Source: Oscillospiraceae bacterium
GTDB taxonomy: Bacteria; Bacillota; Clostridia; Oscillospirales; Oscillospiraceae
DNA length: 51,617 nucleotides
Assembly: GCA_017621795.1 (NCBI GenBank)
Contig: JAGASJ010000002.1
Location: 1-51,617 of the forward strand
Reading direction: 5' to 3'
Part shown: positions 17,040 to 21,812 of the stretch, piece by piece
How positions within the stretch are numbered: the stretch's first letter is position 1
How the letters are laid out: each line of letters opens with the position of its first letter
Made by a program: the position numbers and the translations under genes
The notes under the pieces: model-generated
Told to the model about the DNA's origin: nothing
What the model saw: the letters and a program-made list of their open reading frames with translations, nothing else
Databases searched by the model: none

Positions 17040-17306
17040 GGTTGGTTTCCTCCTTGAATTTCGTACTCAGTTTCTTTCGTCTGGGTACGGTCGAACTGAT
17101 TTGTTCACGCCGCCGTGCGTATCACTCCCAGCCATGAAAAATGGCCGACGCAAGGCCGACCTTTTCCTGCCGCGGCGATATACGCAAGCGTAAACAGGAC
17201 AGTTCAGCCGCCCGATGACCGGACATACTCCGCAGAAGTTACCGCCTTTCGGCGCAATCTCCTGCATCATCGCAGTACGCGCAGGGCAAAGTGCCCCTAT
17301 ACGCGC
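17040..17306 (-). promoter_or_regulatory. Long leader of the S10 operon
   Basis: About 265 nt lie between the promoter and rpsJ. Several short hairpins are visible on the minus strand: CGCC-GAAA-GGCG (GNRA loop), TACGC-TT-GCGTA, and GCCAT-TTTTC-ATGGC beside a TCGGCC direct repeat followed by T5. The arrangement could support attenuation or r-protein feedback; no known leader class is recognised. No protein gene is seen. Confidence 0.45.
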
Positions 17307-17432: not shown

Positions 17433-19100
17433 TTAGTGCAGTGTTCGTACAATGCACTTGCCTTCCTTCATCTCCAGCGCCCAGTCTGCAACATCCGTAG
17501 CAGCCGGACGGTGCGTTACCGCAATGCAGGTCTTACCCGGCAGTTCCCGGATGCGCTCCAAAACCGTGCGCTCCGTAGCATCGTCCAGTGCGGAGGTCGC
17601 TTCATCCAACAGCAAAATAGGTGCATCGCTTAGTACCGCGCGGGCAATGCTTAGGCGCTGTGCCTGTCCTTCGGAAAGACCCAGGGCATTTTCACCTACC
17701 ACCGTCTCCAGTCCTTCGGGAAGAGTGTACAGGTAATCGTCCATGGCGCTGATGTGGATCGCCCGTTCGATCTCCTCCCGGGTGGCGTTGGGATTGGTCA
17801 CCAGCAGATTATCCCGCAGACTGCCACTGAGCAGCAGGTTACCCTGGGGAACGTATGTAAAGAGTCTGCGGGTGGTGTAATCCACGGTCACATCCTCTTC
17901 CCCATCCAAAAACAGCCGTCCGGAAGCAGGCGGGAAGATGCCCAGCAGCAGCTTGAGCAAGGTGCTCTTACCGATGCCGGAATGTCCCACAATGACCCCA
18001 AAGCTGCCCTTCGGCAGGAAGAAGTCTGCGTTATCCAGCACGTAATCCCGATCGTAAGCAAAGGTCAGGGCTTCGCCCCGAATGCCGGTCATTTTCTCAT
18101 AGATCGGTGCTGCTTCCTTGCGCTGCGTGGTGGCGGTATTGCAAATAGACTCCAGCTCCTGCAAACGCTCTGCGGCGGCGCACATTGCCGCATACTGAGG
18201 TCCGATACGGGACATATTGGTAAACGGTATGCGCACCTGCGCCACTAGATTGTTAATGGCCATCATCGTGCCGTAGGTCATCTGCCCCGCCAAAATGGCT
18301 GAAGAACACCACACCAGTGAGCCAAAGGATGCACCGTAGGCCAAAACGCTCATCATGGTGCTGCTGACCAAGGAAACATTCTTTCTTTTGCGATGCAGTT
18401 CATAACGCTCTGCCAGCAGCTTGTCGGAGCGATTTTCTATCACCTGGGAGATATCCATCGCCTGTACCATCAAAAGCTTTTCCATCGTTTCCTGAATAAA
18501 GCCGGACACCTTTCCCTGGGCTTCACTGTTGCGCTTATTCAGGGTCTTCAGCTTGCGGCGGATGAACGAGGACACGATCACTACCAAAATACCTACCACC
18601 ACAACTACTACGGTAAGCATCGGCTCCAACGCGATCAGCACCGTCATTGCCGCAATCAGCTTTGTGGCCATAGAAGCCACAGAGGGCAGAATATTCAGAA
18701 GACTTGTGATCAGCACCGAAACATCGTGGTTCATCAGATTCAGCAGCTCGCCGGTGTGATACTTGGTCACCGCGGAATACTCACCCCGCAATAAACCGTG
18801 GAGCAATGTTCTTTTCCACTGCATATCCATCCGTCCGGTCAGCTGATCCTTCAGGTGGTGGATCAGCGCGCCGGTTAAAATGGTCGCCACGATCAAAATG
18901 CCCTGCTGTACACAGGCGCGGATGAAAGCCTGCTTATCCGGTGCGGCACCTGTGACCGCGTCCACTACCCTGCGGGTACCCAATGCAAACCACACGCCAA
19001 ACAAAGACATTGCCACGTTGCAGATCAGCAGCAAAAGCAATGCGGGTATCCATCTGCGATTGGTGCGAAGCATCCACCGCATCGTCCCCTGCTTTTTCAT
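17433..19100 (-). CDS. ABC exporter half-transporter (TMD-NBD fusion)
   Basis: A membrane exporter of the ABCB type with fused permease and ATPase, 555 aa. Six hydrophobic helices span residues ~15-300 (for example LLLLLICNVAMSLFG and VVVVVVGILVVIV). The nucleotide-binding domain has Walker A GHSGIGKST (~372-380), signature LSEGQAQRLSIARA (~477), Walker B ILLLDEATSALD and H-loop THRP. It must work as a homodimer or with a partner encoded elsewhere, as no second half-transporter is adjacent. The substrate (lipid, peptide or drug) cannot be told. Start ATG 19100 is chosen because AAGGAGG lies 8 nt upstream; an in-frame GTG at 19109 overlaps that SD. Own promoter and terminator: a single-gene unit. 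Confidence 0.9.
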   Translation of the reverse strand: MKKQGTMRWMLRTNRRWIPALLLLLICNVAMSLFGVWFALGTRRVVDAVTGAAPDKQAFIRACVQQGILIVATILTGALIHHLKDQLTGRMDMQWKRTLLHGLLRGEYSAVTKYHTGELLNLMNHDVSVLITSLLNILPSVASMATKLIAAMTVLIALEPMLTVVVVVVGILVVIVSSFIRRKLKTLNKRNSEAQGKVSGFIQETMEKLLMVQAMDISQVIENRSDKLLAERYELHRKRKNVSLVSSTMMSVLAYGASFGSLVWCSSAILAGQMTYGTMMAINNLVAQVRIPFTNMSRIGPQYAAMCAAAERLQELESICNTATTQRKEAAPIYEKMTGIRGEALTFAYDRDYVLDNADFFLPKGSFGVIVGHSGIGKSTLLKLLLGIFPPASGRLFLDGEEDVTVDYTTRRLFTYVPQGNLLLSGSLRDNLLVTNPNATREEIERAIHISAMDDYLYTLPEGLETVVGENALGLSEGQAQRLSIARAVLSDAPILLLDEATSALDDATERTVLERIRELPGKTCIAVTHRPAATDVADWALEMKEGKCIVRTLH

Positions 19101-19132
19101 TGGGTACACCTCCTTATCTTATCATTACAGGT

Positions 19133-19161
19133 AGTATACCATTTTTTTCGTTTCCCGTCAA
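19133..19161 (-). promoter_or_regulatory. Promoter of the ABC transporter gene
   Basis: Minus strand -35 TTGACG (19156-19161), 17-bp spacer, -10 TATACT (19133-19138), about 25 nt before the SD. Confidence 0.75.
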
Positions 19162-19455
19162 CCACCCCAAAAAGTGAGGCACAATGCGAAATGTATAACG
19201 CATAATGCAAACCGGTTATGTCAGCACAAAGCTGACTTCGCATGCAAGTCGTTTGGCCTGTTTTATTTTTATGCTTAAAAACATCATTTTTGTACATTAT
19301 GCTATTTTGCTATAACTAATATTTTATTTTTCTTCAATTTAGTTGCTGTTTGTCTATAATTATTATAAAAAAGTTATCTTTTAGTTATAAAAAAGTTATT
19401 TTCTCACTTTTATGCATCTTGTGCATTTTGCACATTTTCAGTTTTTTTCGAGCAT
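19162..19455. other. AT-rich intergenic stretch
   Basis: No gene is seen. It contains a small hairpin GTCAGC-acaaa-GCTGAC (~19217-19234) and a 22-bp tandem direct repeat of TTATAAAAAAGTTAT (~19362-19399) upstream of the DUF4417 promoter, a possible protein-binding site. Base composition is much lower in GC than in the ribosomal block. Confidence 0.45.
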
Positions 19456-19484
19456 TTGACAGAACATATTGTGCTGTGTATTAT
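19456..19484 (+). promoter_or_regulatory. Promoter of the DUF4417-EndoU-immunity cassette
   Basis: -35 TTGACA (19456-19461), 17-bp spacer, -10 TATTAT (19479-19484); predicted transcript start near 19491, exactly where the first structured leader arm begins. Confidence 0.75.
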
Positions 19485-19490
19485 ATAGAA

Positions 19491-19638
19491 AAGCACCCCA
19501 TACATTGCGGCAACAATGTACGAGATGCTTTGTGGCGTCGGATCTGCTACGCAAATCTAACTTCTCCGTTGGTTAGTATAGCAGATCTCCGCCACAATGT
19601 CAAATTGCACATTAAAGCAAATAAGAAAGGAGATCTGC
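19491..19638 (+). ncRNA. Structured leader RNA with anti-SD arm (candidate cis-regulator)
   Basis: Stem P1: AAGCA (19491-19495) with TGCTT (19526-19530), internal loop CCCCA/CGAGA, then a 7-bp stem TACATTG/CAATGTA closed by CGGCAA. Stem P2: TTGTGGCG (19530-19537) with CGCCACAA (19590-19597), GATCTGCTA (19541-19549) with TAGCAGATC (19579-19587), and CTAAC (19557-19561) with GTTAG (19572-19576). The 3' arm GCAGATCTCC (19581-19590) is also perfectly complementary to the downstream SD region GGAGATCTGC (19629-19638), so P2 and SD sequestration exclude each other. A short frame ATG 19516-TAA 19560 ends inside P2. All pairings are visible in sequence; the switching role is inference. Confidence 0.6.
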
Positions 19639-20319
19639 ATTATTACCAACCTATTTTACGACGGTTTTAATTCCAAGCTGATAGAAACCGCCTTGTTTGA
19701 GGGCTTCCTTGAAATACCCATTATGGATGCCCCCAAAAAAATCGTTGTACCTTCGGTTGCCATTCCTTTTTCAAAAAGAAAAGCAATCACAAGCCCAGCA
19801 GAAGAAATGCTTGTATTTTACGAGCAAGATTCCAAATTCAGAGGATTCCTCAGCATGCCGCAAAATTACACTGATGAGCTGCGAGACATTCAAATAATCT
19901 CTACGCCCGATTGCTCTCTCTACCGGGATATGCCGCTTTGGGAACAGATCGCAAATATCGGTGTAAGCCGTTCCGTGGGGTATTATTTACAACAGCAAGG
20001 GAAATACGTTATTCCAAATGCCCGTTGGGGTGACGAAAGAACATACACAAAGGGCATTTTTGATTACATACCCGCATTTTCGGGTATCCCAAAAAACAGT
20101 ATCGTCTCTATCGGCACCTACGGCTGCAGCAAAAGCAAAGAGGACAAATACTTCCTTGAAGCAGGTCTTGAAGCAATGCTTGCCGAATTAACGCCGCAGG
20201 ATGTGATCGTGTATGGCTCATATAACCCTAAGATTTTTGATAAGTACGAGCACTATACTCATTTTCACCACCTGCCCGATTGGACCACCTATATCCACAA
20301 AAGAAAGAAGGTGGTCTAA
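19597..20319 (+). CDS. DUF4417-like protein
   Basis: A soluble protein of 226-240 aa with no membrane segment. Family-like segments are LIETALFEGFLEIPIMDAP, VPSVAIPFSKR, LSMPQNYTDELRDIQIISTP-type text, GVSRSVGYYLQQQGKYVIPN, and a C-terminal VIVYGSYNPKIFDKYE. DUF4417 proteins occur in mobile and phage-related loci; their function is unknown to me. The first ATG (19597) has no SD and falls in the leader hairpin. A strong SD (AAAGGAG, 19626-19632) instead points to an ATT codon at 19639, 6 nt downstream, which would be a rare AUU start; ATG 19724 would cut into the conserved region. The stop TAA overlaps the EndoU start by one base, so the two are coupled. Confidence 0.7.
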   Translation: MSNCTLKQIRKEICIITNLFYDGFNSKLIETALFEGFLEIPIMDAPKKIVVPSVAIPFSKRKAITSPAEEMLVFYEQDSKFRGFLSMPQNYTDELRDIQIISTPDCSLYRDMPLWEQIANIGVSRSVGYYLQQQGKYVIPNARWGDERTYTKGIFDYIPAFSGIPKNSIVSIGTYGCSKSKEDKYFLEAGLEAMLAELTPQDVIVYGSYNPKIFDKYEHYTHFHHLPDWTTYIHKRKKVV

Positions 20320-20810
20320 TGGGTACAAGCAAAAGCGGGCGTTATCTTAATACAAAAGGTGCAGGACACAGTGTGAGTGATTTTGCGCTCGTTCATTCCA
20401 ATGAGGGCAAATATACGAAGCCTTCCCGCAAAGGTGATAGATTACGTCTTGTCAGCGGTGGACACGGTCAAACAGGTATGGATCAGCTTGATAAATACGG
20501 CATTAAATACAATATCGAAAAAACCTATCCTAATGGTGTCCGTGTGGGAAATGTCCCCGACCACAAAAACCCGGGAAAGCAAAAGAGTATGGGGCAGGCT
20601 TGGTTTCCTAAATCCTGGACAGATAAGGATATCCGTCGTGCAGGCGAACACGTAGCAGGACTTAAAGGAAATCGCCATATTGCAGACGGCAAAAAGATAT
20701 ATGGCGTTTATAAAAGAGTGCGGGTCGGAGTAATCCGCACGAACGGTAAAATAGCCACAGTTTTTCCAGACTCAGACCAAAGCTCAGTATTAAAGAAACG
20801 GAGAAGATAA
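20319..20810 (+). CDS. EndoU-type RNase toxin domain, stand-alone
   Basis: A 163-residue basic protein. Its features match the bacterial EndoU (PF14436-type) toxin domain: a histidine in RLVSGGHGQTG (~50-58), a second in VGNVPDHKNPGKQ (~85-95), the hallmark AWFPKSWTDKDIRRAGEHV (~103-121), and a terminal VRVGVIRTNGKIATVFPD with the conserved Thr/Pro strand. EndoU toxins cleave RNA and usually form the C-terminal tips of secreted polymorphic toxins; here there is no signal peptide, LXG, PAAR or other export domain. It starts at ATG 20319, overlapping the DUF4417 stop, and is followed two bases later by the probable immunity gene. Lower GC than neighbouring housekeeping genes suggests transfer. 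Confidence 0.72.
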   Translation: MGTSKSGRYLNTKGAGHSVSDFALVHSNEGKYTKPSRKGDRLRLVSGGHGQTGMDQLDKYGIKYNIEKTYPNGVRVGNVPDHKNPGKQKSMGQAWFPKSWTDKDIRRAGEHVAGLKGNRHIADGKKIYGVYKRVRVGVIRTNGKIATVFPDSDQSSVLKKRRR

Positions 20811-20811
20811 T

Positions 20812-21192
20812 ATGAATATCAAACTATTGAGGGAGCTTCTTTCTCGCTATCTATCCCTTGATCCCAATGATGATTTTAGTATAGAAAAATATTGGAAAGA
20901 AATGAGTGCGATTCTTTCGGACGATATTTCAGCAACAATTCATTTTTTTGAAAGCGAATGTACGGAGGAAGAATTTTATTGGCTCGGCTCAATATTTGAG
21001 GATATAGCCGAAAAGACGCAAAGCAAAGAACTGATAGGAGTTCTTCGTGATCGTCTTGCAAAAGTCACGCCCGAAACATATTGTCAGCAGAACTTCAAAA
21101 CCGAGCATATGCAAAAGTGGGTTGATTATACAGAATATGTTAGGAGTGTCAATATGAATATCGATTATGCAGAAGGCAGAATTGACGAATAA
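20812..21192 (+). CDS. Probable immunity protein for the EndoU toxin
   Basis: An acidic, helical 126-residue protein with no signal or membrane segment. It reads FSIEKYWKEMSAILSDD, then FFESECTEEEFYWLGSIFED, IAEKTQSKELIGVLRDRL and HMQKWVDYTEYVRSVN. The start ATG 20812 follows the toxin stop by one base with GGAGAAGATAAT as SD. Small acidic proteins directly after a basic toxin gene are typical immunity partners that bind and block the nuclease; the assignment rests on position, charge and size. I do not place it in a numbered immunity family with confidence. Confidence 0.65.
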   Translation: MNIKLLRELLSRYLSLDPNDDFSIEKYWKEMSAILSDDISATIHFFESECTEEEFYWLGSIFEDIAEKTQSKELIGVLRDRLAKVTPETYCQQNFKTEHMQKWVDYTEYVRSVNMNIDYAEGRIDE

Positions 21193-21246
21193 CGCTCGCA
21201 CAGCAGAGAACTTCTGTCCCTTGCGGTTTGGAATCGGTATGAACGC

Positions 21247-21280
21247 AAAAACAGCGGGCGGATGAGATCATCCGCCCGTG
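21247..21280 (-). terminator. Hairpin between immunity gene and flavin reductase
   Basis: Arms CGGGCGGATGA (21255-21265) and TCATCCGCCCG (21268-21278). On the minus strand it is followed by CTGTTTTTG, so it can end the flavin reductase transcript; it also lies between convergent genes. The stem sequence is the same as the dispersed GGGCGGAT...ATCCGCCC repeats of the window. Confidence 0.7.
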
Positions 21281-21287
21281 CGCCCTT

Positions 21288-21812
21288 TTATTCCAAAATA
21301 TATGCGGCGGTTATTTCGCCGTAGTACGCGGTGTGGTAATCCTCGCAATCCCGGGGACTTTCCGGATTATAGTAGCGATTTCTGTTCTCCTCATTGATGG
21401 CGTTTATGTCCTGCTCCTGCTTGTAGATCACCTTGCATTCCAGTGTCAGCGGCAGCTGACGAATGGCAGGTGCACCAACCGTCTCTCCCGGTACGGTCTC
21501 CAGCCCCAACTCCTTGAATTTGTCTACATCCCGTCCGGACTTTGTGCCGCAATAACCGATAATGGAATGGTCGTACTCCCCCCAGGGGATATTGACCGTA
21601 AATTCTCCGCTTTTATCCAGCAGCTTCTTGGTGTGGCGACTGCGGCGCACAAAGGCAATATACATCGGCTTGTGCCACTGGTTTCCCATCGTGCCCCAGC
21701 CAATAGCCATCGTATCCGTCTCGCCGTCGGCGGCAGTGGTCAGCAGAACGCCCTTGTCGGTGGCCTCCAAAATGTGCCCTGCGTATTCCCATATATTGAT
21801 GTATTTTTTCAT
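21288..21812 (-). CDS. Flavin reductase / FMN-binding split-barrel protein
   Basis: A 174-aa protein of the flavin reductase-like split-barrel superfamily. Characteristic parts are GVLLTTAADGETDTMAIGWG (substrate/FMN strand), GNQWHKPMYIAFVRRSRHTK, the TVNIPWGEYDHSIIGYCGTK segment and GAPAIRQLPLTLECKVIYKQ. These proteins bind FMN and reduce flavins with NAD(P)H or act as unknown redox proteins; the substrate is not evident. RBS AAGGAGGCAATCAG. It is a monocistronic unit with its own promoter. Confidence 0.85.
   Translation of the reverse strand: MKKYINIWEYAGHILEATDKGVLLTTAADGETDTMAIGWGTMGNQWHKPMYIAFVRRSRHTKKLLDKSGEFTVNIPWGEYDHSIIGYCGTKSGRDVDKFKELGLETVPGETVGAPAIRQLPLTLECKVIYKQEQDINAINEENRNRYYNPESPRDCEDYHTAYYGEITAAYILE

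Follow-up and report, generated by a model that had tools for sequence, protein, structure and literature searches.

We analyzed a stretch of 51,617 nt (hereafter, the window) from an Oscillospiraceae bacterium (GenBank assembly GCA_017621795.1, contig JAGASJ010000002.1). It carries on its plus strand a cassette of three genes, coding for a DUF4417 protein, an EndoU nuclease that is the likely toxin, and a likely immunity protein, preceded by a structured leader (Table 1). The third gene has no Pfam family at the cut-off and was taken to encode the immunity protein because of its place and of the look-alikes seen by eye after EndoU in relatives. The search of solved structures with the DUF4417 profile gave at best an E value of 0.14, the other hits being worse. 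In relatives, the ATG of DUF4417 aligns with the ATT codon of the window, behind the Shine-Dalgarno motif (SD), where the window has no ATG. This suggests that the gene either starts with AUU or has a start that decayed. No SD is visible before the ATG at 19597.

Table 1. Features of the leader and of the cassette (window coordinates), and loci of relatives with a leader ORF.
Feature	Position	Strand	Basis and remarks
Plus-strand promoter-like site TTGACA-17-TATTAT, 11/12	19456–19484	+	Promoter scan; predicted start ~19491
U-rich tail behind the minus-strand terminator stem	19483–19492	-	By eye; short in the window (UUUUCUAUAU)
Predicted antisense RNA, ~84 nt, two stem-loops	19485–19568	-	Ends estimated from promoter and terminator
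Hairpin 1 (H1)	19492–19529		Would serve the sense leader as 5' hairpin and the predicted antisense RNA as terminator stem; folds, stem covariation
Arm A, 5' arm of hairpin 2, anti-anti-SD	19530–19549	+	Lies under the predicted antisense RNA; fold, A:B swap test
Putative antisense promoter TTGACA-17-TATACT, 11/12, TG before the -10	19575–19603	-	Promoter scan; quality equal to that of the plus-strand site
Arm B, 3' arm of hairpin 2, anti-SD	19579–19597	+	Overlaps the antisense promoter; fold, repeats, B:C swap test
C, SD AAAGGAG (19626–19632) and translation start	19626–19644	+	Probable start codon ATT 19642–19644; by eye
DUF4417 protein (PF14386)	19642–20319	+	E 5.9e-40; PHROGs 8680 (unknown) and 940 (named nuclease)
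EndoU nuclease (PF14436), likely toxin	20319–20810	+	E 2.5e-17
Likely immunity protein	20812–21192	+	PHROG 19054, of unknown function
Leader-ORF loci	L103, L088, L092, L083, L090, L096, L105, L066, L071, L075, L095, L085, L099, L094		ORF start pairs with arm B

The start MG[TSA]..SG.Y.NTKG is often conserved in the gene that follows DUF4417, while the rest of this gene varies (window 20319–20360 and relatives, by eye). The variable part corresponds to EndoU, to DUF6883, or to sequences without a family. This looks like a polymorphic toxin with a shared tag. The MuF-type polymorphic toxin cassettes of phages, in the passages of PMC5576092 that describe them, also combine a variable toxin and its immunity gene in mobile elements; the cassettes studied here differ from that description in that the shared partner is DUF4417, together with the short MG..SG..NTKG start of the toxin gene (by eye). 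In the Mycobacterium phage Centaur (L034, 642–2624), the DUF4417 relative is gp2, annotated as a nuclease at the left end of the genome; after it come a hypothetical protein and an annotated immunity protein, and no leader element was found there. The window also contains an S10-Clostridia ribosomal protein leader at 17205–17278 (minus strand, 37.6 bits) and, near the end of the third cassette gene, a 12/12 promoter-like site on the minus strand (TTGACA-16-TATAAT, 21152–21125).

The leader had been described, in a reading of the sequence alone, as two hairpins in which the 3' arm of the second can pair either with its 5' arm or with the SD region of DUF4417. The coordinates given for these arms are correct: A is GATCTGCTA (19541–19549), B is GCAGATCTCC (19581–19590), and the SD region C is GGAGATCTGC (19629–19638). 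The two hairpins were recovered by folding, the region 19491–19660 having a minimum free energy of -48.4 kcal/mol, against -32.4 +/- 3.8 kcal/mol in 200 dinucleotide shuffles (z = -4.23), none of which was as stable. The match between B and C is perfect over 10 nt and was extended by the repeat search to arms of 17 nt that are 82% complementary (19574–19590 and 19629–19645). The plus-strand promoter-like site is also present, such that a leader transcript could start around 19491. The earlier reader recognized no known riboswitch class, and the element matched no Rfam family either, whether at the gathering score or, within 19300–19700, at E values up to 10.

We then searched for relatives. 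DUF4417 has a relative in 26 of 200 genomes of the same family, and the source genome itself has one DUF4417 match and one copy of the element. From the scan of genome contigs we retained the best 80 of 278 confirmed loci. A first model (R1) had a plus-strand match at an E value of 0.01 or better in 47 of 81 sources, 26 of which had been used to build it, and none at this threshold in the other 34. R1 matched 3 of the 200 genomes of the family. A second model (R2) matched 5 of 398 genomes of the phylum, two of them probably by chance (the matches L134 and L135 look like chance and were excluded from counts), and 31 of 291 genomes of the class, own genome included; eight places in class genomes came without a locus and are outside the set of loci read. 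R2 also matches stretches upstream of recombinases in viral contigs, and gave no match in the phage loci L033–L035 or the plasmid loci L251–L253. Two of the hosts carrying the element are Pseudobutyrivibrio ruminis DSM 9787 (L103) and Lacrimispora saccharolytica An861 (L066). Searches with the neighboring genes in genomes of the same genus revealed no clear synteny. At the gathering score, Rfam found no family in the elements of 16 and 14 relatives; in one relative it gave two matches with E values of 2.7 and 4.1, i.e., at chance level. A description of the element was absent among the literature matches listed, from whose coverage subscription papers are mostly missing.

The element does precede the DUF4417-EndoU cassette in the window, as the sequence-only reading had proposed, but this link is not exclusive: copies also lie before integrases, recombinases, and an AAA ATPase. 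Among 16 proteins encoded by the first downstream gene, Pfam identified six tyrosine integrases, three serine recombinases, two AAA_25 ATPases, and four DUF4417 proteins, with one protein left without a family. Further recombinases and integrases were recognized by eye among 44 loci read. Two of the viral contigs bearing recombinases contain Rfam RNAs, respectively a skipping-rope RNA (L207, 1397–1474) and a pemK RNA (L213, 6776–6837). Across the 36 and 32 upstream regions that were read, the same order of parts recurs, namely an A-tract, hairpin 1, arm A, a loop, arm B, and the motif TTGTCAA. Read on the minus strand, this is a U-tract, a terminator stem, an RNA, a -10, and a -35. As judged by eye, conservation of the primary sequence is mostly confined to the A-tract, the minus-strand -10 and -35, and the short loop of H1.

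The genes upstream of the element were also inspected. The preceding gene encodes an ImmA/IrrE (Peptidase_M78) protease (L039, L041, L047, L055, L103, L066) or a Fic protein (L058, L045, L112, L104), and has no family in L107. PADLOC gave a match to capP for L039 and to SoFic for L045. A motif before H1, GGAGGTGATG..ATGATTGTA, was first taken as a leader ORF and then as the end of ImmA/IrrE; it is the end of that gene in L103, and in L039 the upstream gene stops before it. In many of the loci L036–L063, a strong SD with a short frame (GGAGGTGATGC.TATGATTGTA and variants) lies upstream of H1; it was not seen in the window. The tRNA-like look of the sequence upstream of L022 and L025 was unconfirmed by ARAGORN.

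To assess the pairings, we used a swap test, in which the pairing of each arm with its partner in the same locus was compared with its pairing to partners taken from other loci (20000 permutations). In a first set of 29 loci, chosen by eye for carrying the pattern, the H1 stem (z = -10.1), A:B (z = -11.5), and B:C (z = -8.9) all paired specifically, with values reached by 0 of 20000 permutations each; these figures keep a few loci where the automatic choice of H1 was wrong (e.g., L055, L007, L008) and three where the start window was misplaced (L007, L008, L010). The control pairings gave +2.2 for A:C, +0.5 for H1:C, and -0.7 for the pairing of C with the antisense segment A'. A direct action of A' on the SD is thus not supported, and C pairs better with B than with A' in 26 of the 29 loci. 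A further set of 44 loci, or 39 after the removal of five duplicates, was not chosen for B:C. With a B window of 34 nt, it gave z = -2.9 for B:C (62 of 20000 permutations), -6.3 for A:B, and -1.2 for the control A:C. After the value of -2.9 had been obtained, B was lengthened to the end of the element and seven of the 39 loci were dropped on the basis of start distance and SD; with the longer B, the remaining 32 gave -9.4 for B:C, -9.5 for A:B, and +0.3 for the control. The further set includes weak model matches (L216, L193, L174, and L213, with E values from 0.017 to 0.27). In many loci, B:C extends to the start codon.

The alignments agree with these tests. In alignment A4 (26 rows), 79.4% of the cells in paired columns are paired, against 68.9% when shuffled. 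In alignment A6 (36 rows, aligned by the model), the values are 83.9% against 66.6%, slid versions giving 27–43%, and double changes occur in 22 of 24 pairs. Hence, arms lacking covariation or conservation, the outcome that the sequence-only reading had set against itself, are not what the relatives revealed, and the proposed succession of anti-anti-SD, anti-SD, and SD is real and kept by compensatory change. A leader switch is well supported by this covariation.

Arm B carries a second signal, left unmentioned by the earlier reader. When read on the minus strand, the element resembles the gene of a small RNA, with a promoter-like site inside arm B (19603–19575) and H1 followed by a U-rich tail as the terminator. 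In the window, promoter-like sites alone prove nothing because five were found over 18800–21600 while shuffled sequences yield 6.1. The consensus terminator scan of the window did not list the H1/U-rich-tail site. In relatives, minus-strand promoters scoring at least 10/12 are found in 24 of the 29 loci of the first set (1.7 expected) and 22 of the 39 further loci (2.0 expected), a TG precedes the -10 in 24/29 and 32/39 loci, and the A-rich flank (plus strand) is found in 35 of the 39 further loci against 4% of background windows; these counts are not blind, because the first set was picked by eye and the model, with which most of the 39 further loci were found, includes these columns, those of the A-rich flank among them. 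Six loci have minus-strand promoters scoring 12/12 (L036, L038, L039, L041, L051, and L063). Plus-strand promoters scoring at least 10/12 were found in 3/29 (1.6 expected) and 3/39 loci (1.9 expected). The plus-strand promoter is therefore not conserved with the element: a good one is present in the window and lacking in most loci. The layout, the A:B and B:C covariation, and the conservation of the minus-strand promoter and terminator signals are established at the level of the sequences compared.

We think that the region is probably a two-strand RNA switch run by an antisense RNA of about 84 nt, both transcripts being predicted. In the ON state, a sense leader starting around 19491 would fold as H1 and A:B, leaving the SD of DUF4417 free. 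The antisense RNA would start on the minus strand in the loop between A and B, run back through A, and end at the terminator H1. Once made, it would occupy H1 and A, and the released B would then pair with the SD and the start codon (OFF state). A build-up of the antisense RNA would silence the first gene of the operon and, by way of this gene, perhaps the toxin-immunity operon too; expression would take place when this RNA is absent or outrun by sense transcription. What we infer here is the synthesis of the two RNAs, their pairing with each other, and the direction of the control. The antisense RNA is likely the best-supported signal for the exchange between A:B and B:C, and would be encoded within the same 130 nt. 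In the window, its predicted fold has two stem-loops, and the freed B:C hairpin has a predicted energy of -26.0 kcal/mol. When H1 and A were blocked in simulations, the openness of the SD and start fell in 54 of 61 loci, from 0.42 to 0.29 on average. With swapped starts as a control, it fell from 0.46 to 0.38 (p = 0.031 for the difference in drop, p = 4.5e-7 for the openness of the OFF state). A first simulation, on 48 loci with rough start sites, gave p = 0.13 against swapped starts. These simulations suggest that the closed state is locus-specific and that the switch itself is weakly so in equilibrium folding.

In some relatives, EndoU is the first gene and DUF4417 lies further downstream, with a small gene between the two where this was read. 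We listed 18 such loci, 14 after removal of near-duplicates (model matches of L099 and L094 at E = 0.02). In these 14 loci, B shows no specific pairing to the EndoU start (z = +1.0), and A:C, the intended control, gave z = -3.2. A leader ORF of 22–25 codons, often with ..CLS..TGG..YGNN, overlaps the EndoU start in all 14; its stop lies 14 nt past this start in 13 loci and 11 nt past it in L094, where the EndoU start had been set one codon late. The start of this ORF pairs with B (z = -5.3, control +1.2, 14 loci), a partner that was sought only after the test of B against the EndoU start had failed. In the folds of 11 of these loci, a second hairpin hides the EndoU SD (by eye in most). Translation of the leader ORF would therefore open the EndoU SD. 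In R1 CopA/Tap and ColIb-P9 Inc/RepY, an antisense RNA controls a leader ORF, and it is the translation of this ORF that frees the SD of the following gene; the control proposed for the EndoU-first loci resembles them in this logic. By eye, L136 seems to have two additional arms that pass the same logic on.

Other explanations can be given for these observations. A metabolite, an ion, or heat might drive the exchange between A:B and B:C, with the minus-strand promoter being incidental. Covariation does show the exchange and not its driver, which leaves room for such a sensor, but the conserved primary sequence corresponds (by eye) to the needs of a minus-strand promoter and terminator, Rfam riboswitches have no match in the window or in the relatives scanned, and the first downstream genes scanned share no pathway. 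We thus regard this explanation as unlikely. An antisense RNA acting mainly by transcription termination, in the style of pT181 or pIP501 and with B:C as the terminator stem, seems quite improbable as the general mode. By eye, a run of 5–7 T lies behind the SD with which B pairs in L133, L232, L233, L234, and L242, all with a tyrosine integrase except L233, which has a serine recombinase, so termination may be part of the control in these loci. Yet C is followed in the window by GCATTATTACC, without a T-run, and B:C reaches the start codon in many loci.

Ribosome stalling in the 5' half of the leader might also choose between A:B and B:C, as had been suggested for the window on the basis of a frame at 19516–19560. 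This frame of 14 codons does exist, and a short frame behind GGAGGTG precedes H1 in many relatives (by eye). Stalling on the former is however unsupported because no SD is visible and the ATG is absent at these columns from all 25 other rows of A4 (by eye); the frames before H1 vary in length and sequence, with none seen in the window. No conserved translated frame was found inside the leader, and we consider a leader-peptide attenuator very unlikely. We give equally little credit to a purely DNA-level element, in which the hairpins would be a terminator between transcription units and a protein-binding palindrome, the match to the SD being secondary. That H1 and the A-tract read as a minus-strand terminator in most loci, that the palindrome overlaps the minus-strand promoter, and that several loci have HTH and ImmA/IrrE genes on the upstream side would fit such an element, but a palindrome cannot explain why B tracks the start region of its own locus in 61 loci from two sets, nor why it changes partner to the leader ORF.

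The proposed two-strand switch has close counterparts in plasmids. The passages of PMC5703833 on the rep leader of staphylococcal RepA_N plasmids describe RNAI of pSK41 as an antisense RNA of about 83 nt that has two stem-loops, is transcribed against the leader about 100 nt before the start, and is proposed to induce a stem-loop hiding the rep RBS. As far as these passages go, the logic proposed for the leader of the window would be the same, with a short leader antisense RNA predicted here from the minus-strand promoter and terminator signals. The predicted fold likewise has two stem-loops, and the B:C covariation points to an OFF structure that would hide the RBS. Common descent was not apparent, since R2 gives 17 bits in 601 nt (filters off), and R2 did not find the place of pSK41 RNAI in a search of 7 records. 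The element differs in having the putative antisense promoter inside the anti-SD arm and in preceding DUF4417 cassettes, integrases, recombinases, and AAA_25 ATPases rather than a plasmid rep gene. For pT181 RNAI and pIP501 RNAIII, the same source (PMC5703833) describes antisense binding that removes a pre-emptor arm and leads to an OFF hairpin, mainly by transcription termination. The removal of the pre-emptor would be shared with them, as that account presents it, whereas the window has no T-run behind C. Given the T-runs of some integrase loci, translational and terminating modes may both occur across loci.

There is also some likeness to type I toxin-antitoxin systems, in which an antisense RNA acts against a small hydrophobic toxin, since the antisense RNA would keep a toxin operon from being translated. 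The element differs from them in that the gene under its putative control is often DUF4417 or a recombinase, and in that a likely immunity protein accompanies the toxin. No small hydrophobic toxin was found in the cassette, which opens with DUF4417 and has EndoU as its likely toxin. The only match to Rfam SR6_antitoxin came from one relative, with an E value of 4.1 and 15 bits against a gathering score of 55. With its transcripts predicted, the element would be a form of antisense control common to integrases, recombinases, and DUF4417-toxin cassettes.

We tentatively propose, as a possibility that we still find doubtful, that a single antisense translational switch was recruited across the mobile elements of Clostridia as an entry timer and an RNA-based immunity. 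If so, entry into a naive cell would lead to a burst of translation of the integrase, the recombinase, or the DUF4417-toxin-immunity operon before the antisense RNA accumulates and shuts it, and the antisense RNA of a resident element would silence related incoming elements in trans. This would amount to a control resembling plasmid incompatibility moved to integrative elements. It makes direct predictions, i.e., a burst on entry, silence in residents, and cross-silencing of relatives. More generally, our results suggest a compact family of RNA switches without a match in Rfam, located before genes that decide the integration of mobile elements or the expression of toxins. With this family, antisense control of the plasmid type would reach integrases and toxin-immunity cassettes, and there would be a handle on DUF4417, a family of phages and mobile elements without a settled function.
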